Source: Noviherbaspirillum sedimenti
GTDB taxonomy: Bacteria; Pseudomonadota; Gammaproteobacteria; Burkholderiales; Burkholderiaceae_D
Length of the DNA: 64,000 nucleotides
Assembly: GCF_003590835.1 (NCBI RefSeq)
Contig: NZ_QYUQ01000002.1
Coordinates: 558,001 to 622,000 of the forward strand
Reading direction: 5' to 3'
Under the pieces are notes generated by a model. It saw nothing but the letters and a program-made list of their open reading frames with translations, ran no database searches and was not told the DNA's origin. The stretch's first letter is position 1, and the number at the start of each line of letters is the position of its first letter. Below are positions 998 to 57,791 of this stretch, in pieces. The translations under genes were made by a program, and so were the position numbers.

Positions 998-1040
998 TTG
1001 ACGCAAATGTTAAGGGTAAACTAAGATAACTACGTTATAT
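998..1040 (+). promoter_or_regulatory. Promoter with palindromic operator ATAAC-TAC-GTTAT
   Basis: TTGACG (998-1003) and TAAGAT (1022-1027) form a sigma70-like promoter with an 18-bp spacer. A second possible -10, TATAAT, lies at 1042-1047. The palindrome ATAAC-TAC-GTTAT (1026-1038) overlaps the first -10, the usual place for a repressor site. The 16 bases 1025-1040 recur exactly at 30301-30316, before the Baeyer-Villiger operon. The MarR gene at the end of this operon is the nearest candidate regulator (inference). Confidence 0.6.
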
Positions 1041-1081: not shown

Positions 1082-3100
1082 ATGATCGCGCACCAACGCA
1101 ATACAGATAAAACGCTCTCAAGTGCAAACCTGCGTGACATATATCGCACTGCGTCCTTGATAAGGACGGCTGAAAACAAGATACTGAAACTCTTGCGTTC
1201 CGGTGCAATTTCCTTTCCGTTTTACCCGGTTACTGGGCAGGAGATCGCCCCGGCCGTACTCGCTCATTGCCTGGGAAAAGACGATCAGATGGTCACGATT
1301 TACCGTGGCCTCGCTGATCAGCTGGCAAAGGGCTTGAGTTTATTCGAAGTGCTCGGTGAATGCATCGGACACTCAGCCGGCCTGTGCGGCGGTACTGGTG
1401 GCGGCATGGGCATTGCCAAGCCCGAACTCGGCATAATGATGACTACCGGCATTGTAGGCTCCGGTGCGCCAGTGGCCAACGGGTTGGGCCTCGCATCGCA
1501 GTTGCAAGGTACAGGCAAAGTGGTGGCGGTGAGTTTTGGGGATGGCGCCACCAGCATTGGTGCTGTGCATGAGGCGATGCACATGGCTTCGCTTTGGAAG
1601 CTGCCTGTGATCTTCGTTTGCCATAACAATCAATGGGCGGAATCCACCCCCTTTGCAGAGTATTCGACGATTGACCGATTGTCCCGTCGCGCCGAAGCGT
1701 ACAGCATGGCTGGCGTTACTGTCGATGGCGCCGATCCGGTAGCGTTGCAGGCTGTTTTCGCCGAGGCGGTCGAACGCGCCAGTTCTGGCGCTGGGCCTAC
1801 CTTCATTGAATCGATGACCTACCGGTTGTGCGGCCACTACTATGCAGATCAGGGCCCATACATGGATAAAGAGCGCCTGGCGCAAGAACGCGATAAAGAC
1901 CCGGTTCCGGCGCTGCGTGCTCGTCTCATCGCAGAAGGCCATGCAAGCATCGACCAACTCGACAGCATTGACGCGCAGGTCGCCGCCATCGTCGATGCAG
2001 ATTGCGCGCGCCTGCTTGATACGCCCGACGACGCGCCTACGCGAAAAGCGCTGCGCAGGCATGTGTATGAGGATCCCGACTTCGTGCCGGTAAGCCGCCA
2101 TGCGGCGCCAGCCGATCCAGTCCCTGCAGCGGTGCGCAAAGGCACCATGCGGGATGGCTTTAATGAGGCGCTCAGTATCGCCCTTGAACGCGATCCGGGT
2201 GTCATTGCGCTGGGCGAAGATATTGCCGATCCTGCCGGTGGGGTAACCGGTGTTACGCGCGGCTTGTCGACGCAATATGGTCTTCATCGCGTGCGCTCAA
2301 CCCCGATCGCGGAGCAGGCGATTTTTGGTGCCGTTGTTGGCGCTGGCCTGGCGGGCATGCGGCCAGTGGGCGAATTGCTCATGATGGACTTCCTCCCGGT
2401 TGCCATGGATCAATTGATCAGCCATGCCGCCAAGGTGCGGTTTATGACTGGAGGGCAGGTGCATTGCCCAATGACGATGATTACCCTGATTGGCCAGGGC
2501 AATGGCGCGCAACACTCGCAATCGACAGAGGCATGGTTGATGCACACGCCAGGACTCAAGGTGGCCTATCCATCGACCCCTGCGGATGCAAAGGGACTGC
2601 TGCTGACGGCAATCTTTGACAATGATCCGTGCATCGTTCTTGAATGCATGAGCCTGTTGTATAGCAGCGGAGATATTCCGGAAGGGGACTATCGTATTCC
2701 CTTTGGCTCTGCTGCCGTGCGTCGCGAAGGCAGTGATGTCAGCATCATTAGCTATGGCGCGACCATGACCGATGCGCTGGCGGCAGCTGACCTGCTTGCC
2801 GCTGATGGCATCAGTGCGGAAGTGATCGATTTACGCTCCCTGGTGCCGCTGGATGGTCACACGATTTTGAAATCAGTAGCCAAAACGGGGCGCGCCGTGA
2901 TTGCGCATCGCGCTACGGAGTTTCTCGGTGCTTCCGCAGAAATTTCTTCCCTGATCAATTCCGAACTTTTCGGCCAGTTGAAGGCGCCGGTCCAGCGCGT
3001 GGCTGGCGACTACACCCCCGTACCCAAGAGCACGAAGCTTTTGGGTGTTTATTTCCAAGGTGCGGCAGCAATTGTCAGTGCCGCAAAGGAGACTCTGTAA
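1082..3100 (+). CDS. 2-oxoacid/acetoin-type dehydrogenase E1, alpha and beta fused
   Basis: Thiamine-diphosphate E1 component that would decarboxylate a 2-oxoacid (or cleave an acyloin/diketone) and pass the acyl group to a lipoyl domain. Residues about 15-330 are the E1-alpha half with the TPP motif GDG (153-155) ending at NN (182-183). Residues about 356-672 are the E1-beta half (starting MRDGFNEAL), giving one 672-aa chain where most complexes use two proteins. GGAGG precedes the ATG by about 9 bases. The next gene, a free lipoyl domain, starts on the last base of the stop codon, so the two are translationally coupled. The matching E2 core is at 14481-15245, in another operon; no E3 is in the window. 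Branched-chain 2-oxoacids, pyruvate or acetoin-like compounds are all possible substrates. Confidence 0.88.
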   Translation: MIAHQRNTDKTLSSANLRDIYRTASLIRTAENKILKLLRSGAISFPFYPVTGQEIAPAVLAHCLGKDDQMVTIYRGLADQLAKGLSLFEVLGECIGHSAGLCGGTGGGMGIAKPELGIMMTTGIVGSGAPVANGLGLASQLQGTGKVVAVSFGDGATSIGAVHEAMHMASLWKLPVIFVCHNNQWAESTPFAEYSTIDRLSRRAEAYSMAGVTVDGADPVALQAVFAEAVERASSGAGPTFIESMTYRLCGHYYADQGPYMDKERLAQERDKDPVPALRARLIAEGHASIDQLDSIDAQVAAIVDADCARLLDTPDDAPTRKALRRHVYEDPDFVPVSRHAAPADPVPAAVRKGTMRDGFNEALSIALERDPGVIALGEDIADPAGGVTGVTRGLSTQYGLHRVRSTPIAEQAIFGAVVGAGLAGMRPVGELLMMDFLPVAMDQLISHAAKVRFMTGGQVHCPMTMITLIGQGNGAQHSQSTEAWLMHTPGLKVAYPSTPADAKGLLLTAIFDNDPCIVLECMSLLYSSGDIPEGDYRIPFGSAAVRREGSDVSIISYGATMTDALAAADLLAADGISAEVIDLRSLVPLDGHTILKSVAKTGRAVIAHRATEFLGASAEISSLINSELFGQLKAPVQRVAGDYTPVPKSTKLLGVYFQGAAAIVSAAKETL

Positions 3101-3324
3101 TGGAACTGCGTATTCCCCAATCCGGTGATGCTGTCACCGAAGTTCAACTCGTCGAATGGCACGTCGCTGATGGTGCCGAAGTCAAGGAAGGCGATGTCGT
3201 GTACTCGATCGAGAGTGAGAAGGCGGTCATTGATATCGAGGCACCGGCTGCCGGCAAGGTGAAGATCATTGAGCAGGCCGGTGCTTTCCTCGCCATCGGC
3301 CATCTCGTGGGCAGTGTCGCCTGA
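3100..3324 (+). CDS. Free-standing lipoyl-domain protein
   Basis: A 74-residue protein that is nothing but a lipoyl (biotinyl/lipoyl attachment) domain. The lipoylation lysine is K41 in the hairpin IESEKAVID; the usual DKA is EKA here. It would carry acyl groups from the E1 just upstream, with which it overlaps by one base (TAATG), to an E2 acyltransferase core. Lipoyl domains are normally fused to the N-terminus of E2. Here the E2 core at 14481-15245 lacks one, so the pair looks like a split E2. A role as biotin carrier is less likely, because the adjacent gene is an E1. Confidence 0.88.
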   Translation: MELRIPQSGDAVTEVQLVEWHVADGAEVKEGDVVYSIESEKAVIDIEAPAAGKVKIIEQAGAFLAIGHLVGSVA

Positions 3325-5537: not shown

Positions 5538-6065
5538 ATGAACCAAATCGCCCCCCAGAATGCGTCAAGCCGACAGGGAAAATCCTCTGCTGTTGTGAAA
5601 AATCCGAAATCCAGGCGTACTCCCGAAGAGATAAACTGGGACACGCGTCTTGGCTTTCTGATGCATGACGTATCCCGACTCAGGCGAACTGTCTTTGATG
5701 AATTCATGAAACCGCTGGGGGTCACGCGCTCCCAGTGGTGGGTGCTGGCCTATCTTTCCCGCCATGACGGGATGATTCAAAGCGATCTGGCAGACATGCT
5801 GGAACTGGGCAAGGCGGCCCTGGGCGGCCTGATCGATCGCCTGGAATCATCAGACTTCATTCAACGCAGGGCCGATGCGACGGACAGGCGCGTCAAGCGA
5901 ATCTACCTGACTGAAAAAGGCGTTCAGATCATCAAGCAAATGCGCAATTCCAATCAGGATATGAGTGAGCGCATTTTGAATGGCTTGAATGAAGCGGAGC
6001 GGCAAAATTTGTTCGAGCTGCTGGCGCTTGTGAAAAAAAATCTTGTCACAATTAAGAGCGTCTAA
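5538..6065 (+). CDS. MarR-family transcriptional regulator
   Basis: A 175-aa protein with a MarR winged helix: N-terminal dimerisation helix, then LGVTRSQWWVLAYLSRHDGM, recognition helix around GKAALGGLIDRLE, and a wing with the typical DRRVKRIYLTEKG. The first 35 residues are Lys/Arg-rich and look disordered. It is the last gene of the E1/lipoyl/acyl-CoA dehydrogenase operon, 18 bases after the previous stop. MarR proteins usually repress their own operon and respond to aromatic acids or CoA esters. The palindrome at 1026-1038 is therefore its most likely target (inference), which would make it a candidate regulator of the operon at 30.4 kb too. Confidence 0.9.
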   Translation: MNQIAPQNASSRQGKSSAVVKNPKSRRTPEEINWDTRLGFLMHDVSRLRRTVFDEFMKPLGVTRSQWWVLAYLSRHDGMIQSDLADMLELGKAALGGLIDRLESSDFIQRRADATDRRVKRIYLTEKGVQIIKQMRNSNQDMSERILNGLNEAERQNLFELLALVKKNLVTIKSV

Positions 6066-11365: not shown

Positions 11366-12175
11366 TCAGGTGAGGACGCTGGGATCGGCCAGCACTTCGC
11401 GCCGGATCATTGCGTGGTACATGCGATTACCGGACTTGCCCCCAAGCGCCGCGCTCACCAGGCCATCCACGGCGGGCTGCGTCATTGGCAGCCCCCGCTC
11501 CGCGCCAAGTGCCTTCACGCGCCACGCCATGCGAGCGCGCGTCTCAAGTGCGACGCAACGCTGGTGGGCGCGGGCAATGCTGTCCCCAAGGATAAAGACG
11601 CCATGGTTGGCGAGGATCGCGGCGTTGCTGTTGCCCATGGCCCGCACGTTCAGTTCCGCGATTTCTTTGAAAGTGACATCGGCCTCATATTCGTTGTAGA
11701 GGCCCAACTCACCGACCTGTGCTGAATTCTGGTTGTAGATCCCGGGAATCTCCCCGAGCGCGCCCCACACGGTGCCCCACTGGCTGTGGTGATGGACCGC
11801 CACTTTGACGTCCGGCCGCAAGCGATGAGCGGCTAGATGTAGGGCAACCGCAGGCGTTACCGTCCAACGCCCCGAGAGCAGCTTGCCAGTGGTATCAATA
11901 CGCAGAATGTCGGATGCGCGTATCTCGTCCCAAGGCACTTCCCAGGGGTTGAGCAGGATCGTGCCATCGGGCTGCACGTAGGTGATGTGTCCCCAATTGT
12001 GGTCGTCGTATCCCTCGCGGTGCAACATGCGGGCAAGTACCGCCACTTCCGCCTCCGGTGAAAGCGAGAAGTACAGGGTCTTCTGCTCGCCCTCCTCATA
12101 GACGCGGACTGGACGGTTCGTATTTGCCGTCTGGCCCATCGGGGCACTCGTTTCCTTGGTCGATGTTTCTGCCAT
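11366..12175 (-). CDS. Class II aldolase/adducin-family protein
   Basis: A 269-aa metal-dependent aldolase/decarboxylase-type protein. Metal-binding histidines are visible in VAVHHHSQWG and in ANHGVFILGD. The N-terminal 30 residues are a Thr/Ser-rich extension. GGAG lies about 8 bases before the ATG. It is the first gene of the Rieske alpha/beta operon, 48 bases upstream of the alpha subunit. Members cleave hydroxy-oxoacids to pyruvate or decarboxylate ring diols' oxidation products; which applies here cannot be told. Confidence 0.85.
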   Translation of the reverse strand: MAETSTKETSAPMGQTANTNRPVRVYEEGEQKTLYFSLSPEAEVAVLARMLHREGYDDHNWGHITYVQPDGTILLNPWEVPWDEIRASDILRIDTTGKLLSGRWTVTPAVALHLAAHRLRPDVKVAVHHHSQWGTVWGALGEIPGIYNQNSAQVGELGLYNEYEADVTFKEIAELNVRAMGNSNAAILANHGVFILGDSIARAHQRCVALETRARMAWRVKALGAERGLPMTQPAVDGLVSAALGGKSGNRMYHAMIRREVLADPSVLT

Positions 12176-12601
12176 GCCTGTTTCTCCTAGTTATAACCGA
12201 TTGCCTTTGCCTACCGGGATAAAAGCACATTTGAAACGGGACTTTTGTGCTTGTTTTCCGGCCTTCGCCTCAGTCGTGCGGCATCGCTTGACGCGTGCCG
12301 CACGCCGATGTGAGAAGCATATTTCAATACATCAAATCAAGGTGGTAGAGACGGCGAGATATGGACGAACGCGCTACCATTTAAGACGTTCTGCACAGTT
12401 TTTCCGGATCTGATCCGCTGCGTCCCCGGACCGCCTCTTTGCCTCTCCTCGACGGCAAGGCCACTCTGCTTTCCGGCCACGATCTCGGTGAGTTCCGCTT
12501 GTGGCTGGAGCAGAAACTTGGCGGCGCCAATCCATCGCAAGATATTCCTGAGGGGCTCCCCAATGCTGGCTTCGCCGCGCTATTGGAGTGGGTTGCGACA
12601 G
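12176..12601. other. Intergenic stretch, no gene recognised
   Basis: 426 bases between the aldolase promoter side and the 3' end of the enoyl-CoA isomerase-like gene. Short open frames exist on both strands (for example 12439-12648 plus, 12337-12540 minus) but none has a ribosome site or resembles a known family. TGGTAG (12343-12348) and CTACCA (12374-12379) form a loose inverted repeat that could belong to the minus-strand promoter. The part 12400-12600 may be decayed coding DNA of unknown origin. Confidence 0.4.
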
Positions 12602-13366
12602 CTAGTTGTTTGCTGGAGCTGCCCGACGACGTTCCAGAAAGGCCTTGATGCCTGCCTGCGTTTCCGAACGGGTCAACATGGCGTCGAACTGACGAAGTTC
12701 CTGCCTGAATAGTCCATGCATGCTGGCGTAGAGCCGCTCTTTCAGCATAGCCTTGGCATTGATGACGGTTTCGCTCGGCAATGAAGCCAGCTTCATTGCA
12801 CGCTGTCGAGCAAAGGGAATCAGGTTGGCATTCTCGACGACCTGATTGACGATGCCCATCTCGCGTGCCCGATGAACATCAAAGGTTTCGCCGAACAGCA
12901 CGGCTTCGGAGGCAAGGCGATGCCCACTGAACAATGGCGCGAGCAGACTCGTGCCAAACTCGGGACATACGCCCAGGGGAACAAATGGCATGCCAAACCT
13001 GGCGTCCGGTGTGGCGTAGACGATATCGCTATGGTAGAGGATGGTCGTGCCCAGTCCGATGGCAGCGCCGCCTACGGCGGCGATCAGGGGTTTGCGCAAC
13101 GCCTGGACCGCATCCATCAATGCCAAGGCGGGGCGGGTTCCTTGCCCCTGCGGATCCAGAAATTCGCCCAGATCGTTGCCGGAGCAAAAAAGGTCCTCTT
13201 GCCCGCGTATCATGACGACGCGCGTGCCTGGATCCAGATCGGCCTTGAGCAGCGCCTTGGTTACGGCATCGTACGTGGCGGCATTAAGCGCATTCTTGAC
13301 TTCCCGGCGAAAAAGTTCGATTTCGGCGACACCGTCGGCAACGGTAATTCTGATATTGGTGTTCAT
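12602..13366 (-). CDS. Crotonase, delta3,delta2-enoyl-CoA isomerase-like
   Basis: A 254-aa crotonase-fold protein. The start at 13366 is chosen because GGAGG lies five bases upstream; the frame extends four codons further. The oxyanion-hole region is FCSGNDLGEF and GGAAIGLGTT. Both hydratase glutamates are missing: the GGGxE position has Thr and the PE position has Phe. Instead a Glu occurs in LGVCPEFGTS, the position used by peroxisomal-type delta3,delta2-enoyl-CoA isomerases. I therefore favour double-bond isomerisation over hydration. It is divergent from the GntR gene. Confidence 0.82.
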   Translation of the reverse strand: MNTNIRITVADGVAEIELFRREVKNALNAATYDAVTKALLKADLDPGTRVVMIRGQEDLFCSGNDLGEFLDPQGQGTRPALALMDAVQALRKPLIAAVGGAAIGLGTTILYHSDIVYATPDARFGMPFVPLGVCPEFGTSLLAPLFSGHRLASEAVLFGETFDVHRAREMGIVNQVVENANLIPFARQRAMKLASLPSETVINAKAMLKERLYASMHGLFRQELRQFDAMLTRSETQAGIKAFLERRRAAPANN

Positions 13367-13606: not shown

Positions 13607-14449
13607 ATGTTGGCTGTAAAAACAGCAATTCCTTTAAAAGGTATGCCCCAAGTGAATGATTTGACGCTGTCGCAAATAAATGAACCGGAAGAGATCCGTG
13701 TCCAGAAACTTTCCCATGTCATCGCCGACCGATTGCGTAAGCAGATCATTTCCGGGCAACGCAATCCTGGCGATCGATTGCCGCCTGAGGCGGAGTTGCT
13801 GGAGCAGTTCCAGGTGTCCCGGCCGACGATTCGCGAAGCGCTGCGGATTCTGGAAGTCGAGTCCCTGATCACGCTGGGGCGAGGGGCGCGGACCGGGGCG
13901 ACAATCAAGGCGCCTTCGGTGGAGCGGGCAGCCGAATATGCCGCCATGGTCTTAGTGCGCGGCGGCACGACCATGATGGAATTGCACGTGGTGCGCACCT
14001 TGCTGGAACCCCCCATCGTGTATCGATTGACCGTGCAAGGCGAGACGCGCATATTTGACGACATGGAGCAGCATCTTGTCAGAGCAAAGCAATATCTGAA
14101 AGAATCCGATCTTCAGGCGGCAGTGGACGAGGCCAGCGCATTTCATGCGGCGCTTTCCAGTGGCAACAAGAACCAGGCGCTGAACCTGATTGTGGAAATG
14201 CTGCAGCTTCTCTCCCTCGACGCGACCGATATGCTGATGCAGAATCTGGGGGGCAACACGGCTGATCTCAAGAAGCGGTTGACCAAAGTGATTGGCAATT
14301 TCCAGAAACTGCTGGATACGATGCGGCAAGGCGACGCTGACGAAGCCCAGCAATTGTGGCATCGATACATGGTAAACGGTCAGAAACTCCTGCTGGATAC
14401 TGGGATTGGCAATAACAAATTGCGTTTCCGTCCGTCCAAGCAAGGCTGA
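13607..14449 (+). CDS. GntR-family (FadR/FCD type) regulator
   Basis: 280 aa. The winged helix sits at about 30-95, with GDRLPPEAELLEQFQVSRPTI typical of GntR proteins, followed by an all-helical FCD-like ligand domain (MMELHVVRTLLEPPIVYRL onward). FCD domains bind organic acids or acyl groups. The first 25 residues are less conserved, and ATG 13643, with AAAAGG close by, is an alternative start. It lies between minus-strand operons for crotonases, the CoA ligase and E2, which it probably controls. Confidence 0.88.
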   Translation: MLAVKTAIPLKGMPQVNDLTLSQINEPEEIRVQKLSHVIADRLRKQIISGQRNPGDRLPPEAELLEQFQVSRPTIREALRILEVESLITLGRGARTGATIKAPSVERAAEYAAMVLVRGGTTMMELHVVRTLLEPPIVYRLTVQGETRIFDDMEQHLVRAKQYLKESDLQAAVDEASAFHAALSSGNKNQALNLIVEMLQLLSLDATDMLMQNLGGNTADLKKRLTKVIGNFQKLLDTMRQGDADEAQQLWHRYMVNGQKLLLDTGIGNNKLRFRPSKQG

Positions 14450-14480: not shown

Positions 14481-15245
14481 TTACGCAAGATCGTAATCCG
14501 CGATACATGGCGTCTCCAGTAAAGCCTGAAGCGTTTGCAGCAGTCTGGCGCCGACTGCGCCATCGACCACCCGATGGTCACATGTCAAAGTCAGGCTCAT
14601 GACTGTCGCGATACCGATCTGGCCTTCTTTGACAATCGGGCGCTGCTCGCCGACGCCGACAGACAGAATGCAGCCATGCGGCTGGTTCAGGATCGAGGCG
14701 AACTGGCGGATTCCAAACATACCCAAGTTGGAGATCGAGAACGTCCCGCCTTTGTAGTCGCGTGGTGAGAGTTTCATGGCTCTTGCGCGCGCGATCAAGT
14801 CTTTGCTTTCTATGCTCACCTGAATTAGTGACTTGGTGTCGACGCTGCGTAGAATCGGGGTAATTAAGCCGTTATCCAGTGCAACAGCCACGGCGATGTC
14901 AGCATGGTGGTGCCGTGCAATGCCATCTGGCGTGAAGCTGGCATTGGCCTCGGGTACCCGGGCCAGCGCCACGGCGCATGCGCGCACGATGACATCGTTG
15001 AGCGTGACCTTGAGACCGCTTCCTTCTGCTTTTTCCTCGTTGTATCGACTGCGAAAGCGGAGCAGCGCGTCAATTTCCACATCGATAGTCAGCGGAAAAT
15101 GCGGCACATCGCGGAAGCTTTCCGTCATGCGATTAGCAATGGTCTGGCGCAAACCATCAAGAGGAATCAGGTCATACGAACCCGGTGTGATGCCGATTTT
15201 GGTGAGCGCTGCGGACGTCGGCTTCGGGGCAATTGAATCGGTCAT
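14481..15245 (-). CDS. E2 dihydrolipoamide acyltransferase catalytic core without lipoyl domain
   Basis: A 254-aa protein consisting of the 2-oxoacid dehydrogenase acyltransferase domain alone (PF00198-like). The catalytic motif is DHRVVDG (223-229; H224, D228), with the substrate-site region FSISNLGMFG upstream. The N-terminal 25 residues contain neither a lipoyl domain nor a peripheral subunit-binding (E3/E1-binding) domain, whereas ordinary E2 proteins are 400 or more residues. The lipoyl domain appears to be the separate 74-aa protein at 3100-3324. It is the last gene of the operon crotonase / CoA ligase / E2, so acid activation and 2-oxoacid oxidation are co-expressed. Confidence 0.88.
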   Translation of the reverse strand: MTDSIAPKPTSAALTKIGITPGSYDLIPLDGLRQTIANRMTESFRDVPHFPLTIDVEIDALLRFRSRYNEEKAEGSGLKVTLNDVIVRACAVALARVPEANASFTPDGIARHHHADIAVAVALDNGLITPILRSVDTKSLIQVSIESKDLIARARAMKLSPRDYKGGTFSISNLGMFGIRQFASILNQPHGCILSVGVGEQRPIVKEGQIGIATVMSLTLTCDHRVVDGAVGARLLQTLQALLETPCIADYDLA

Positions 15246-17691: not shown

Positions 17692-17713
17692 TTAACCTAC
17701 ATACCGCGGTTAA
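17692..17713. promoter_or_regulatory. Inverted repeat TTAACC-N10-GGTTAA between divergent crotonase genes
   Basis: TTAACC (17692-17697) and GGTTAA (17708-17713) lie 10 bases apart in the 127-base gap between the divergent genes at 17645 and 17773. The half-site resembles the ATAAC half of the cluster's palindrome. It could serve both promoters; no -35/-10 pair is convincing. Confidence 0.45.
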
Positions 17714-17772
17714 CATGGTAAGCTAAGTTGTTATGGATGTCATCCTGTTTGAAATAAAATTTGGAGAAATAT

Positions 17773-21851: not shown

Positions 21852-21946
21852 CCTGGGTTCCTGTATCGGTGTCGGTTGAAACATGGTGGACGTTAAGCAT
21901 CATTTCGCGATGAAACGCCTAACGATTGCTGTATTCTACAACATAG

Positions 21947-21971
21947 GTTACGATGTTATCTAGGTATACTA
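21947..21971. promoter_or_regulatory. Operator-like element between crotonase operon and Rieske gene
   Basis: GTTAC-GAT-GTTAT (21947-21959; on the other strand ATAAC-ATC-GTAAC) is a two-mismatch version of the ATAAC-N3-GTTAT palindrome. It is followed directly by CTAGGTATACTA (21960-21971), of which TAGGTATACTA recurs exactly at 57751-57761. The element sits in the 186-base gap between divergent genes, so it could control both. Confidence 0.5.
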
Positions 21972-30260: not shown

Positions 30261-30316
30261 TTGACGCACCATTGAAATCAATCCATACTTTATTCTAAAC
30301 GATAACTACGTTATAT
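30261..30316 (+). promoter_or_regulatory. Promoter and operator of the Baeyer-Villiger operon
   Basis: TTGACG (30261-30266), a 17-bp spacer and CATACT (30284-30289) make a sigma70-like promoter. The palindrome ATAAC-TAC-GTTAT (30302-30314) lies near the expected transcription start. Bases 30301-30316 are identical to 1025-1040 before the E1 operon. The divergent MaoC gene shares the region. Confidence 0.65.
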
Positions 30317-30431
30317 ACGTTGATGTAGTTTGTTGATATTGATACTTGGGAATGGGATAACCACCCGCTGGTACGTGGCGGATTTCGGATCAATGAAGAA
30401 GAATTATTGATATAAAGAAGGAGACGTTTCA

Positions 30432-32069
30432 ATGCAATTATGTGAAGCAGATTATCGGAAAGACAACGAAAGCCAGGCTTGCGAGTTTGACGCCATTGTC
30501 GTTGGCGCAGGCTTTGGCGGCATGTACGCGCTACACAAGCTGCGTGGACTCGGGATGCGTGTGCGTGTACTCGAAGCGGCGCCCGACGTCGGCGGCACTT
30601 GGTACTGGAACCGCTATCCCGGTCTTCGGTGTGACGCAGAAAGCGTGGAATATTCCTATTCTTTTGATGACGGACTGCAACAAGATTGGGAGTGGACGGA
30701 AAAGTTCGCGACGCAACCAGAAATCCTGCGTTATGCAAAGCACGTTGCCGACCGGTTTGACTTCAGGCGCGATATCAACTTCGAAACACGCGTGAAGTCG
30801 GCAACGTATGACGAGGCCACCAAGCGCTGGTGCATAGTGACTGATCGTGACGAAGAGCTGACGGCACGCTTTTTTATCATGGCGACAGGATGCTTGAGTG
30901 TTGCCAGCGTACCTAAGATGAAGGGATTGGATAGTTTCAAGGGGCGCTGGTATCACAGCAGCAATTGGCCAGAGGGGGGAGTGAATTTCAAGGGATTGCG
31001 CGTCGGTGTTATTGGCACCGGTTCCACAGGCATTCAGCTAATTCCGGAGGTGGCCAAGGATGCAGCGCATCTCTACGTGTTTCAGCGTACGCCGAACTTC
31101 ACAGTGCCGGCTCAAAACGGACCACTCTCGCCTGATTTCAAAAAGTACGTTAAAGAAAACTACGCGGATATCCGTGCTCGTGCCAGACAACAGGGACTTG
31201 GCTTGCACACTCACGGCGATCAATCGGCATTTGGCGTCTCCGCTGAAGAACGCCAAAGGCGTTTTGAAGCTGCGTGGCAGCAGGGCGGTCCACAGTTTAT
31301 GTTTGTCTTTAATGATCAGCTAAAAAATCCAGAAGCAAACAAGGCTGCCGTTGATTTCGTGCATGGAAAAATTCGCTCTATCGTCAAGGATCCTGCAACA
31401 GCCGATACGCTTTGCCCAAAGGATTACCCAATAGGTGCAAAACGCATTTGTGTAGACACGAACTACTACGCGACGTTCAACCGTGAGAACGTCACTCTAG
31501 TCGATTTGCGCAAGTCACCTATTGAAGAACTAACTGAGGCGGGCTTGAAAACCAGTAATGGGGATTATGAGCTCGATGCCATTGTTTTTGCGACGGGATT
31601 CGACGCAATGACCGGTGCATTGTTGAAGGTTAATATCATCGGGCGCAACGGACTCAAGCTGGCGGACAAATGGTCTGCAGGCCCGCAAAATCTTCTTGGC
31701 ATCACGGTTTCTGGATTCCCGAATTTCTTCATGATTACCGGACCTGGAAGTCCATCCGTTTTCTCGAATGTCGTGATGTCGATTGAGCAGCATGTGGATT
31801 GGATGGTTGATTGCCTTAAATATATGAGAGAGCAAGGCTTCGCTGCGATCGAAGCCAGCGCAGAAGCCGAATCAAGCTGGGTGCAGCATGTGAATGATGT
31901 CGCCAATAATACGTTGCTGCCGCAAGCAAATTCCTGGTACGTAGGCGCCAATATTCCAGGAAAACCTCGAGTCTTCATGCCTTACGTTGGTGGGGTCGGT
32001 CAGTTCCGCAAGAAATGCGATGAAGTGGCGGAAAATGACTATAGCGGTTTTGCACTCGAAAGGGGATGA
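30432..32069 (+). CDS. Baeyer-Villiger monooxygenase (flavin-dependent)
   Basis: A 545-aa class B flavoprotein monooxygenase that inserts oxygen next to a ketone, giving an ester or lactone. The FAD motif is VVGAGFGGMY (23-32), the diagnostic fingerprint is FKGRWYHSSNWP (about 169-180, FxGxxxHxxxWP), and the NADPH motif is GTGSTG (about 195-200). AGGAG precedes the ATG. Its stop overlaps the start of an esterase gene by 4 bases, and alcohol and aldehyde dehydrogenases follow: the classical order for ketone to ester to alcohol plus acid to acid. Length and motifs match cyclohexanone/steroid-type enzymes; the substrate is unknown. Confidence 0.93.
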   Translation: MQLCEADYRKDNESQACEFDAIVVGAGFGGMYALHKLRGLGMRVRVLEAAPDVGGTWYWNRYPGLRCDAESVEYSYSFDDGLQQDWEWTEKFATQPEILRYAKHVADRFDFRRDINFETRVKSATYDEATKRWCIVTDRDEELTARFFIMATGCLSVASVPKMKGLDSFKGRWYHSSNWPEGGVNFKGLRVGVIGTGSTGIQLIPEVAKDAAHLYVFQRTPNFTVPAQNGPLSPDFKKYVKENYADIRARARQQGLGLHTHGDQSAFGVSAEERQRRFEAAWQQGGPQFMFVFNDQLKNPEANKAAVDFVHGKIRSIVKDPATADTLCPKDYPIGAKRICVDTNYYATFNRENVTLVDLRKSPIEELTEAGLKTSNGDYELDAIVFATGFDAMTGALLKVNIIGRNGLKLADKWSAGPQNLLGITVSGFPNFFMITGPGSPSVFSNVVMSIEQHVDWMVDCLKYMREQGFAAIEASAEAESSWVQHVNDVANNTLLPQANSWYVGANIPGKPRVFMPYVGGVGQFRKKCDEVAENDYSGFALERG

Positions 32070-35707: not shown

Positions 35708-35956
35708 TGCTCTTTGTGAACTTTTAGCTGCTTGTTTTATTTGTACCGTAGTAGGAAGTCTCATCGTACCTGATCAGATGTCGTTCCAATGTTGAACGGA
35801 AGGTTATCGCACGAAACCGACGGCGATAATGCTGAGGTACGGAAAAAGAAATAATCGAATTGCGCCATAACATAATTAACTAGGTTGACTAAGTGGTGTA
35901 TATGGCGTAAAGTTATTCATGCATTGTTGCATGTTTGTTTTTAAGAAAGGGTTCAA
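35704..35956 (+). promoter_or_regulatory. Promoter region of the ferredoxin operon
   Basis: No gene is seen in these 253 bases. TTAAC-TAG-GTTGA (35876-35888) is a degenerate version of the cluster palindrome and overlaps a TTGACT -35-like element (35885-35890). No good -10 at 17 bp can be named. AAAGGG precedes the ferredoxin ATG. Confidence 0.4.
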
Positions 35957-50284: not shown

Positions 50285-50329
50285 TTGACAATTGAATTTT
50301 ATAATAGAATACTTCGATAACCTAGTGAT
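50285..50329 (+). promoter_or_regulatory. Promoter and operator before the thiolase-crotonase fusion
   Basis: TTGACA (50285-50290), a 17-bp spacer and AATACT (50308-50313) make a good sigma70-like promoter. ATAAC-CTA-GTGAT (50317-50329), one mismatch from the ATAAC-N3-GTTAT palindrome, sits just downstream at the expected start of transcription, as at 30302. Confidence 0.6.
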
Positions 50330-54799: not shown

Positions 54800-55108
54800 T
54801 GGCCCGCGCACTCAGGAGTCTCTGTGGAAGCGGCTTAAGCGAAGATTACATTGGCGAAGAAACTCTTTGCGTCTTGGATTTTCGATCAGTCTGAGCAAGG
54901 GGACTCTCAATGCGCCACCCATTTTGCTTGTCTTTTTAAAAAAATAAATTAGTGGCACTAAGTTATAGACGTTTATTATGAGGTGCGTGTACTATCTGTA
55001 AAAAATTATGCAAACAAGCTGCGCTGAAAGTTGGCATGGCTTTTCAGCAGGACGGGGTGCCAATTTCCCCATGAAAAGCTAGAGATTATATTAAGAGAGA
55101 GACAAAGC
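54800..55108 (+). promoter_or_regulatory. Leader of the MFS gene with interlocking hairpins
   Basis: No gene is seen here. GCTGAAA (55023-55029) pairs with TTTCAGC (55042-55048), and GGGG (55054-55057) with CCCC (55067-55070). The loop of the first contains TTGGCA (55031-55036) and the loop of the second TGCCAA (55058-55063), which are complementary. GCTTTTCA (55039-55046) can instead pair with TGAAAAGC (55072-55079). Such alternatives sit just before the ribosome site and could regulate the transporter. GTTAT/TAGTG around 54951-54966 is a poor match to the cluster palindrome. Confidence 0.4.
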
Positions 55109-57494: not shown

Positions 57495-57740
57495 ACCAAG
57501 TCCAAGCTGACCGCACCAACCATCACGAATCGCTGAAACTACTGTACTGCCGCTGCTCGATGGCATGCTGTGCCTTGCCGGTCGACGTGGCCGTCTGCTT
57601 TTAATGCGTGGCTTCAAACCATCCGAACTGGGGGCTATGGCACGGTGAATAATTCATCTGCAACGTAGCGTTGATGGCTGCTGCAATGGCCAATCACGCG
57701 GCTGACAGCCGTTGGGCTTCTTATGGCCTTCTAATTTAAA
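57495..57740. other. Intergenic stretch, nothing recognised
   Basis: These 246 bases between the GhrA-like gene and the promoter at 57741 contain no convincing gene, repeat or terminator. The 143 bases 57792-57934 after the promoter likewise hold only an untranslated leader. Confidence 0.4.
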
Positions 57741-57791
57741 TAGTATAACTTAGGTATACTAGTTGACATTGTAAATTTTTTTGTCGATACT
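57741..57791 (+). promoter_or_regulatory. Strong promoter with 21-bp palindromic operator
   Basis: TTGACA (57763-57768), a 17-bp spacer and GATACT (57786-57791) form a near-consensus sigma70 promoter. Immediately upstream, 57741-57761 is a near-palindrome with TAGTATA and TATACTA arms around ACTTAGG. It includes ATAAC-TTA-GGTAT (57745-57757), one mismatch from the cluster motif, and TAGGTATACTA, shared exactly with 21961-21971. It should drive the P450-relic/SDR/binding-fold operon. Confidence 0.7.

Follow-up and report, generated by a model that had tools for sequence, protein, structure and literature searches.

What signal do two operons share when they carry the same sixteen bases at their promoters? 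We addressed this question in a window of 64,000 nucleotides from Noviherbaspirillum sedimenti (contig NZ_QYUQ01000002.1, positions 558,001 to 622,000); plain positions below refer to this window. The 16-mer GATAACTACGTTATAT occurs exactly at 1025 and 30301, and exact copies of the 13-mer ATAACTACGTTAT span 1026-1038 and 30302-30314. The 15-mer core GATAACTACGTTATA has two exact copies in the 5.04-Mb genome, both inside the window. A sequence-only reading had reported the identical bases at these two operons and held that they were not expected by chance. Base composition agrees, since ATAACNNNGTTAT is expected 0.03 times per 64 kb and is seen twice, but six direct-repeated 16-mers in four groups lie in this window, so a repeated 16-mer alone is weak evidence. 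The one-mismatch versions of ATAACNNNGTTAT are present at 50317 and 57745 as claimed. Two mismatches separate 21947 and 39801 from it, and by eye there are three at 35876. The same reading placed each exact copy at a sigma70-like promoter. Plus-strand matches do precede both copies (998-1027 and 30261-30289, each 9/12; another, 10/12, lies at 50285-50313), but shuffles of short regions often give one (0.5-0.8 matches), so the promoter matches are weak evidence as well. Among 147 relatives, the sole exact match to the 14-mer ATAACTACGTTATA is at G068:C29:8858 (L004).

The repeated word is not a complete operator. At both 1025 and 30301 it is a single 9-bp half-site, AACTACGTT, within a longer one. 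Neighbouring and comparison DNA comprised 19 stretches, with genes called by a simple script. A de novo motif search of 103 promoter regions from C2:502-702 kb returned an even palindrome of 18-20 bp, TAACTWnGTT/AACnWAGTTA, which consists of two 9-bp half-sites. The repeated word is the right half-site at 1018-1037 and the left half-site at 30303-30322. Written in 9-mers, operator 1 is AACTAAGAT AACTACGTT and the 30303 operator is AACTACGTT ATATACGTT GATGTAGTT; the word is therefore the same half-site in two registers. At 6.5-7.5 bp from its centre, the operator has its strongest bases, an outer AC...GT pair. Six of the seven places named in the sequence-only reading overlap an operator of this form, but 39801 overlaps none (best matrix score -1.8).

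The operator had originally been described as an odd dyad, the 13-mer ATAAC-N3-GTTAT, acting by itself at the two main promoters. In favour of the dyad, two exact copies stand at promoters where 0.03 are expected in 64 kb, width 15 slightly outscores even width 14 (log-likelihood 46 vs 41), and the 13-mer could be the central half-site of a 9-bp array. However, even palindromes fit better from width 16 up, with log-likelihoods of 62, 76 and 82 at widths 16, 18 and 20 against 55 and 67 at widths 17 and 19. The two copies also occupy different registers of the longer site. Genome-wide, the dyad is not enriched, with 3 exact copies against about 2.2 expected and, at up to one mismatch, 41 against 68 in a reversed control. 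We consider it very improbable that the odd dyad is the operator.

The longer operator occurs at fifteen sites in fourteen intergenic regions across 87 kb, in one degradation gene island. Eight operators lie in the window (Table 1). Left of the window, operators precede genes for an alpha/beta hydrolase, an MFS transporter and a P450 with a divergent TetR, and further ones precede a GntR gene, another MFS gene (assigned by likeness to the MFS of the window) and a DUF1302 gene.

Table 1. Operators, operon genes and candidate regulators. Outside-only scores come from a motif learned from promoter regions outside the window.
Feature	Position	Strand	Score	Outside-only score	Context
Operator 1	1018..1037		21.2	top of window (width 18)	half-sites 1019-1027 AACTAAGAT and 1028-1036 AACTACGTT; upstream of E1 operon 1082; overlaps -10-like TAAGAT 1022-1027
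Operator	17711..17730		18.1	12.1	between divergent enoyl-CoA hydratase (ECH) genes 16851- and 17773+; missed by the sequence-only reading
Operator	21939..21958		16.8	11.8	between ECH 20931- and Rieske oxygenase 22038+; weaker second register at 21948
Operator	30303..30330		18.3 (30303-30322)	12.5	between MaoC 29690- and Baeyer-Villiger monooxygenase (BVMO) 30432+; three 9-bp half-sites
Operator, double register	35868..35896		13.8, 18.3	12.1, 10.4	upstream of ferredoxin 35957
Operator	50309..50328		16.8	13.5	between ATP-grasp CoA ligase 48113- and thiolase-like/ECH fusion 50454+; overlaps -10-like AATACT 50308-50313
Operator, weaker	54955..54974		13.6	10.9	upstream of MFS transporter 55031/55109; missed by the sequence-only reading
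Operator, double register	57737..57765		11.0, 18.3	12.5 at 57747	upstream of SDR/binding-protein operon 58138; three bases common with TTGACA 57763-57768 (-35 by eye)
Single-chain E1 alpha-beta dehydrogenase	1082..3100	+			first gene behind operator 1
MarR regulator	5538..6065	+			first candidate of the sequence-only reading; disfavoured
GntR/FCD paralogue	13607..14449	+			PF00392 + PF07729; about 43% identical to C2:539485-540366
BVMO	30432..32069	+			behind the 30303 operator
GntR/FCD, principal candidate	C2:539485-540366 (L106:17485-18366)				18.5 kb left of window

The first operon of the window (1082-3324) encodes fused E1 alpha and beta (672 aa) and a 74-aa lipoyl-type protein, followed by two acyl-CoA dehydrogenase-like genes. 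An isolated E2 catalytic domain lies at 14481-15245. Among solved structures, the BVMO is closest in sequence to phenylacetone and steroid monooxygenases. In a parallel catabolic cluster at C2:3770001-3830000 (L102-L104), E1 alpha, E1 beta and the lipoyl protein each have a gene of their own. This cluster also carries two close paralogues of MarR 5538 and a GCATATCATATGC palindrome at 3800382.

The motif is intergenic and restricted to the island. Our own-genome matrix was trained on 14 sites of the C2 region around the window, so matrix matches within that region are no test. An earlier matrix test of the window gave nine intergenic matches above 12 and none in coding DNA (permuted mean 0.2, 0/500); these nine positions correspond to seven operators, and the training sites were chosen with the window promoters in view. 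The clean test used a motif learned only from 69 promoter regions outside the window. With a width of 18, this motif placed every one of the eight window operators within the 12 best window places. Above a score of 10, this motif gave nine intergenic and three coding matches in the window, and permuted matrices averaged 0.81 intergenic matches, with 0/300 reaching nine. At width 20, there were eight intergenic matches above 10 and none in coding DNA (permuted mean 0.99, 0/300). At width 16, a different word was returned, and its single intergenic match in the window was reached by 143/300 permuted matrices. A shared regulatory signal had been proposed for the E1, Baeyer-Villiger, thiolase-fusion and SDR operons. 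This proposal is supported: operators stand at all four and are found by the outside-only motif.

Across the 200 kb around the window, the own-genome matrix gave 18 matches above 12, and 17 of these fall between 528,976 and 615,765. A further 202 kb elsewhere in the genome gave one, and 80 loci of BVMO relatives gave five in 1.31 Mb (80 kept from 401 loci; best segment at most 59% identical). When the operator pattern was allowed up to one mismatch, it was found at seven distinct genome places, six of them at C2:530-608 kb. Two mismatches made the genome-wide search unselective (90 rows vs 242 in the control), and a looser pattern showed no genome-wide excess (22 forward vs 18 control). We also observed strong sites at C2:679931 (15.9), which lies 64 kb past the island and away from called promoters, and at L034:9508 (16.0) and L046:12914 (16.3), in BVMO-relative loci of other bacteria.

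The sites are AT-rich and lie at promoters, as promoter-like similarity or chance would have it. This explanation is contradicted by the permuted matrices, which have the same composition, by the outside-only motif and by the other promoters of the genome, and we give it almost no credence. A regulon of fifteen sites, presumably bound by a common protein, is well supported by the sequence.

Which protein would read these operators? The regulator probably belongs to the GntR/FCD family. A GntR protein had been named as second candidate. The family appears right, but the likelier gene is C2:539485-540366, outside the window, and the gene at 13607 is a possible second reader. In the C2:539485 protein, FCD scores above cut-off, and both the GntR wHTH and FCD domains are in the precomputed annotation. 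Its promoter, TTGACA-N17-TATAGT, matches at 11/12 (one found vs 0.2 in shuffles), and an operator starts 3 bp past the -10 box. The genome has nine FCD genes, and 539485 alone has the best matrix match of its locus just upstream. The promoter of GntR 13607 has no good operator (best score 5.0). In L142, a matrix match of 13.0 falls within the FCD reading frame. At E<=1e-30, a search for the GntR protein across 399 genomes of the order hit its own genome and none of the other 398, and 53 genomes of another genus gave no hit either. Genes of Paraburkholderia phytofirmans and Pseudomonas encode GntR proteins of 45-57% identity. A search for the regulators at E<=1e-8 in the loci of BVMO relatives gave an empty output. 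We think it quite likely that the operators are read by a GntR/FCD repressor, most plausibly the product of C2:539485-540366 and possibly also that of 13607, and that a metabolite releases the island promoters.

The motif recurs beside distant FCD genes. Twelve plasmid loci with FCD homologues, from eight plasmids, encode proteins 28-33% identical to the island GntR. With the own-genome matrix, these loci contained 12 intergenic matches above 10 (ten places) in 25,320 positions and 0 coding matches in 167,194 positions. Permuted matrices averaged 0.99 matches, and 0/300 reached 12. The first six loci, which were the source of the idea, gave 4 matches vs 0.67 permuted (1/300 reaches 4). The second six, fetched after the idea, gave 8 vs 0.28 (0/300). 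Matches are found in six of the loci (L132, L133, L135, L136, L138 and L141), and no intergenic match above 10 was found in the other 6/12 (L130, L131, L134, L137, L139 and L140). Six FCD/GntR genes, in L132, L133, L135, L136 (two) and L138, have a site scoring 8.9-14.7 at a distance of 25-190 bp upstream.

A de novo search that did not use the own-genome matrix returned ACttAGttaaCTaaGT from five Rhodococcus/Mycobacterium FCD loci. These five were selected for own-genome matrix matches and come from three plasmids, so they are not independent. The de novo consensus over all twelve loci, AnttAgttaacTaanT, is blurrier. Recognition helices, compared after the fact, read SRPTLREAV in the positive actinobacterial FCD proteins and REAL in our own proteins; the positive L135 has REAF, and the negatives have REAF (four), RESF and REAL. 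Separately, in L131 (a Massilia putida plasmid), around 11765-12926, the FCD regulator of a comparable acyl-CoA cluster seems by eye to have a different palindrome, AATCAT..ATGATT.

The first candidate of the sequence-only reading was the MarR/SlyA-like protein at 5538. It is encoded by the last gene of the E1 operon, and NCBIfam ranks SlyA first for it, though below cut-off. The operator core TTAG-N4-CTAA also resembles the SlyA box, TTAGCAAGCTAA. A protein-database search at E<=1e-30 gave 3522 homologues of MarR 5538, counting the protein itself. The paralogues of MarR 5538 at 3.79-3.81 Mb are 79% and 70% identical to it. Six plasmid loci of MarR relatives (proteins 43-66% identical) gave 1 intergenic match above 10 in 11,860 positions, which 61/150 permuted matrices reach; were these loci as rich in the motif as the FCD loci, they should hold five to six. 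The 60-kb cluster at 3.8 Mb, with its two paralogues, has one operator-matrix match above 12, and the island motif is nearly absent from it. A de novo search of the six MarR loci together with this cluster returned another palindrome, GTATGC..GCATAC, in a search without permutation control. This palindrome is not enriched in the window at three mismatches (27 vs 29 expected). The likeness to SlyA is outweighed by the unenriched MarR loci, and we consider binding of the operators by MarR 5538 unlikely.

An equally doubtful regulator is the TetR protein encoded at C2:532073-532780 (L106:10073-10780). Its gene is divergent from a P450 gene, the site 532949 lying in the region that separates the two, and even palindromes such as this operator suit TetR proteins. 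However, excluding itself, it has just three protein-database relatives at E<=1e-20, and one distant TetR locus (about 26% identity) is without a site (best 6.3). No TetR gene is listed at the motif-bearing loci L132, L136 and L138, for which the PLSDB gene tables are incomplete.

Returning to the GntR/FCD reading, the half-sites around the operators are in 9-bp phase. For the fifteen own sites, secondary matrix matches up to 60 bp away lie at -18, -9 or +9 in 12/12 cases, and in the plasmid set 5/6 lie at -9 or +9. The 9-mer is nearly self-complementary, so part of this phasing follows from the main site. Flank half-site scores peak near multiples of nine. The top four offsets are 18, -9, -18 and 27 for our own sites, and the top offsets in the plasmid set are 18, -13 and -9.

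These data suggest how the island may be controlled. A dimeric GntR/FCD-type repressor would bind two adjacent 9-bp half-sites, and additional subunits may be recruited where a promoter has a third half-site in 9-bp phase, as several do. Some operators overlap or abut core promoter elements (at 57746 the operator touches the -35 by eye), and the 30303 operator begins 14 bases past a -10-like box. A protein bound at the overlapping or abutting sites should therefore block RNA polymerase. The operator position favours repression, though activation may also occur. The repressor should be released by a metabolite of the pathway, for which a CoA thioester or a carboxylate is our guess. Release would switch on the promoters behind the fifteen sites, including the regulator's own. 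In this scheme, computation establishes the motif, its confinement to intergenic DNA and to the island, its recurrence beside distant FCD genes and the 9-bp phasing; we infer the binding, the identity of the regulator, the repression and the ligand. A broader and more tentative idea is that a GntR/FCD class common to Gammaproteobacteria, a sphingomonad and Actinomycetota uses 9-bp-phased AACTWnGTT half-sites. Dimers might then share half-sites in a polymer-like, graded occupancy, and the whole island could run on one element.

The repeat thus becomes a testable regulon, with one operator, two candidate proteins and fifteen sites. Among the genes at these sites are those for a Baeyer-Villiger monooxygenase, a Rieske oxygenase, a P450 and transporters. 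Finding this operator next to FCD genes in other phyla could allow regulators to be paired by sequence with the pathways of poorly known degradation clusters, and the 9-bp-phased half-sites raise the question of whether GntR dimers share neighbouring sites.

In the open-licence literature, we found no paper naming the island operator and none with the exact 16-mer together with GntR. Known systems offer partial likenesses. In a survey of the FadR (FCD) subfamily, the box is TKGT/ACMA, with a spacing that is usually 3 nt and is 2 nt in several groups (PMC4494728). Like those boxes, the island operator has GT...AC near the palindrome centre, here with spacing 2 (GT-TA-AC). Unlike them it reads WAGT/ACTW, with extra half-sites in 9-bp phase. 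The G has a frequency of 0.82 and the T 0.48, as do their partners, and the K position of TKGT is mostly A. The island operator resembles the classical boxes only in part. The survey also describes weaker extra half-sites near many GntR-family sites (PMC4494728), so the 9-bp phasing would be a regular form of a known tendency.

Two FCD/VanR proteins are precedents for FCD repressors of catabolism. AlkR of Pseudomonas aeruginosa represses alkane oxidation and is released by long-chain acyl-CoA (PMC12042122). Like the proposed island regulator, it is an FCD repressor of oxidative catabolism with a palindrome over -10 regions, but its operator is ATTGTCAGACAAT and a handful of targets are named for it, whereas the island has fifteen sites and another word. 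Atu1419 of Agrobacterium likewise represses a catabolic region from repeated palindromes at promoters (PMC7797058). It differs in being a tetramer and in its 10-bp ATGTATACAT sites, of which two are separated by 190 bp. Compared with these systems, the island operator is best regarded as a variant within the known FCD/GntR operators.
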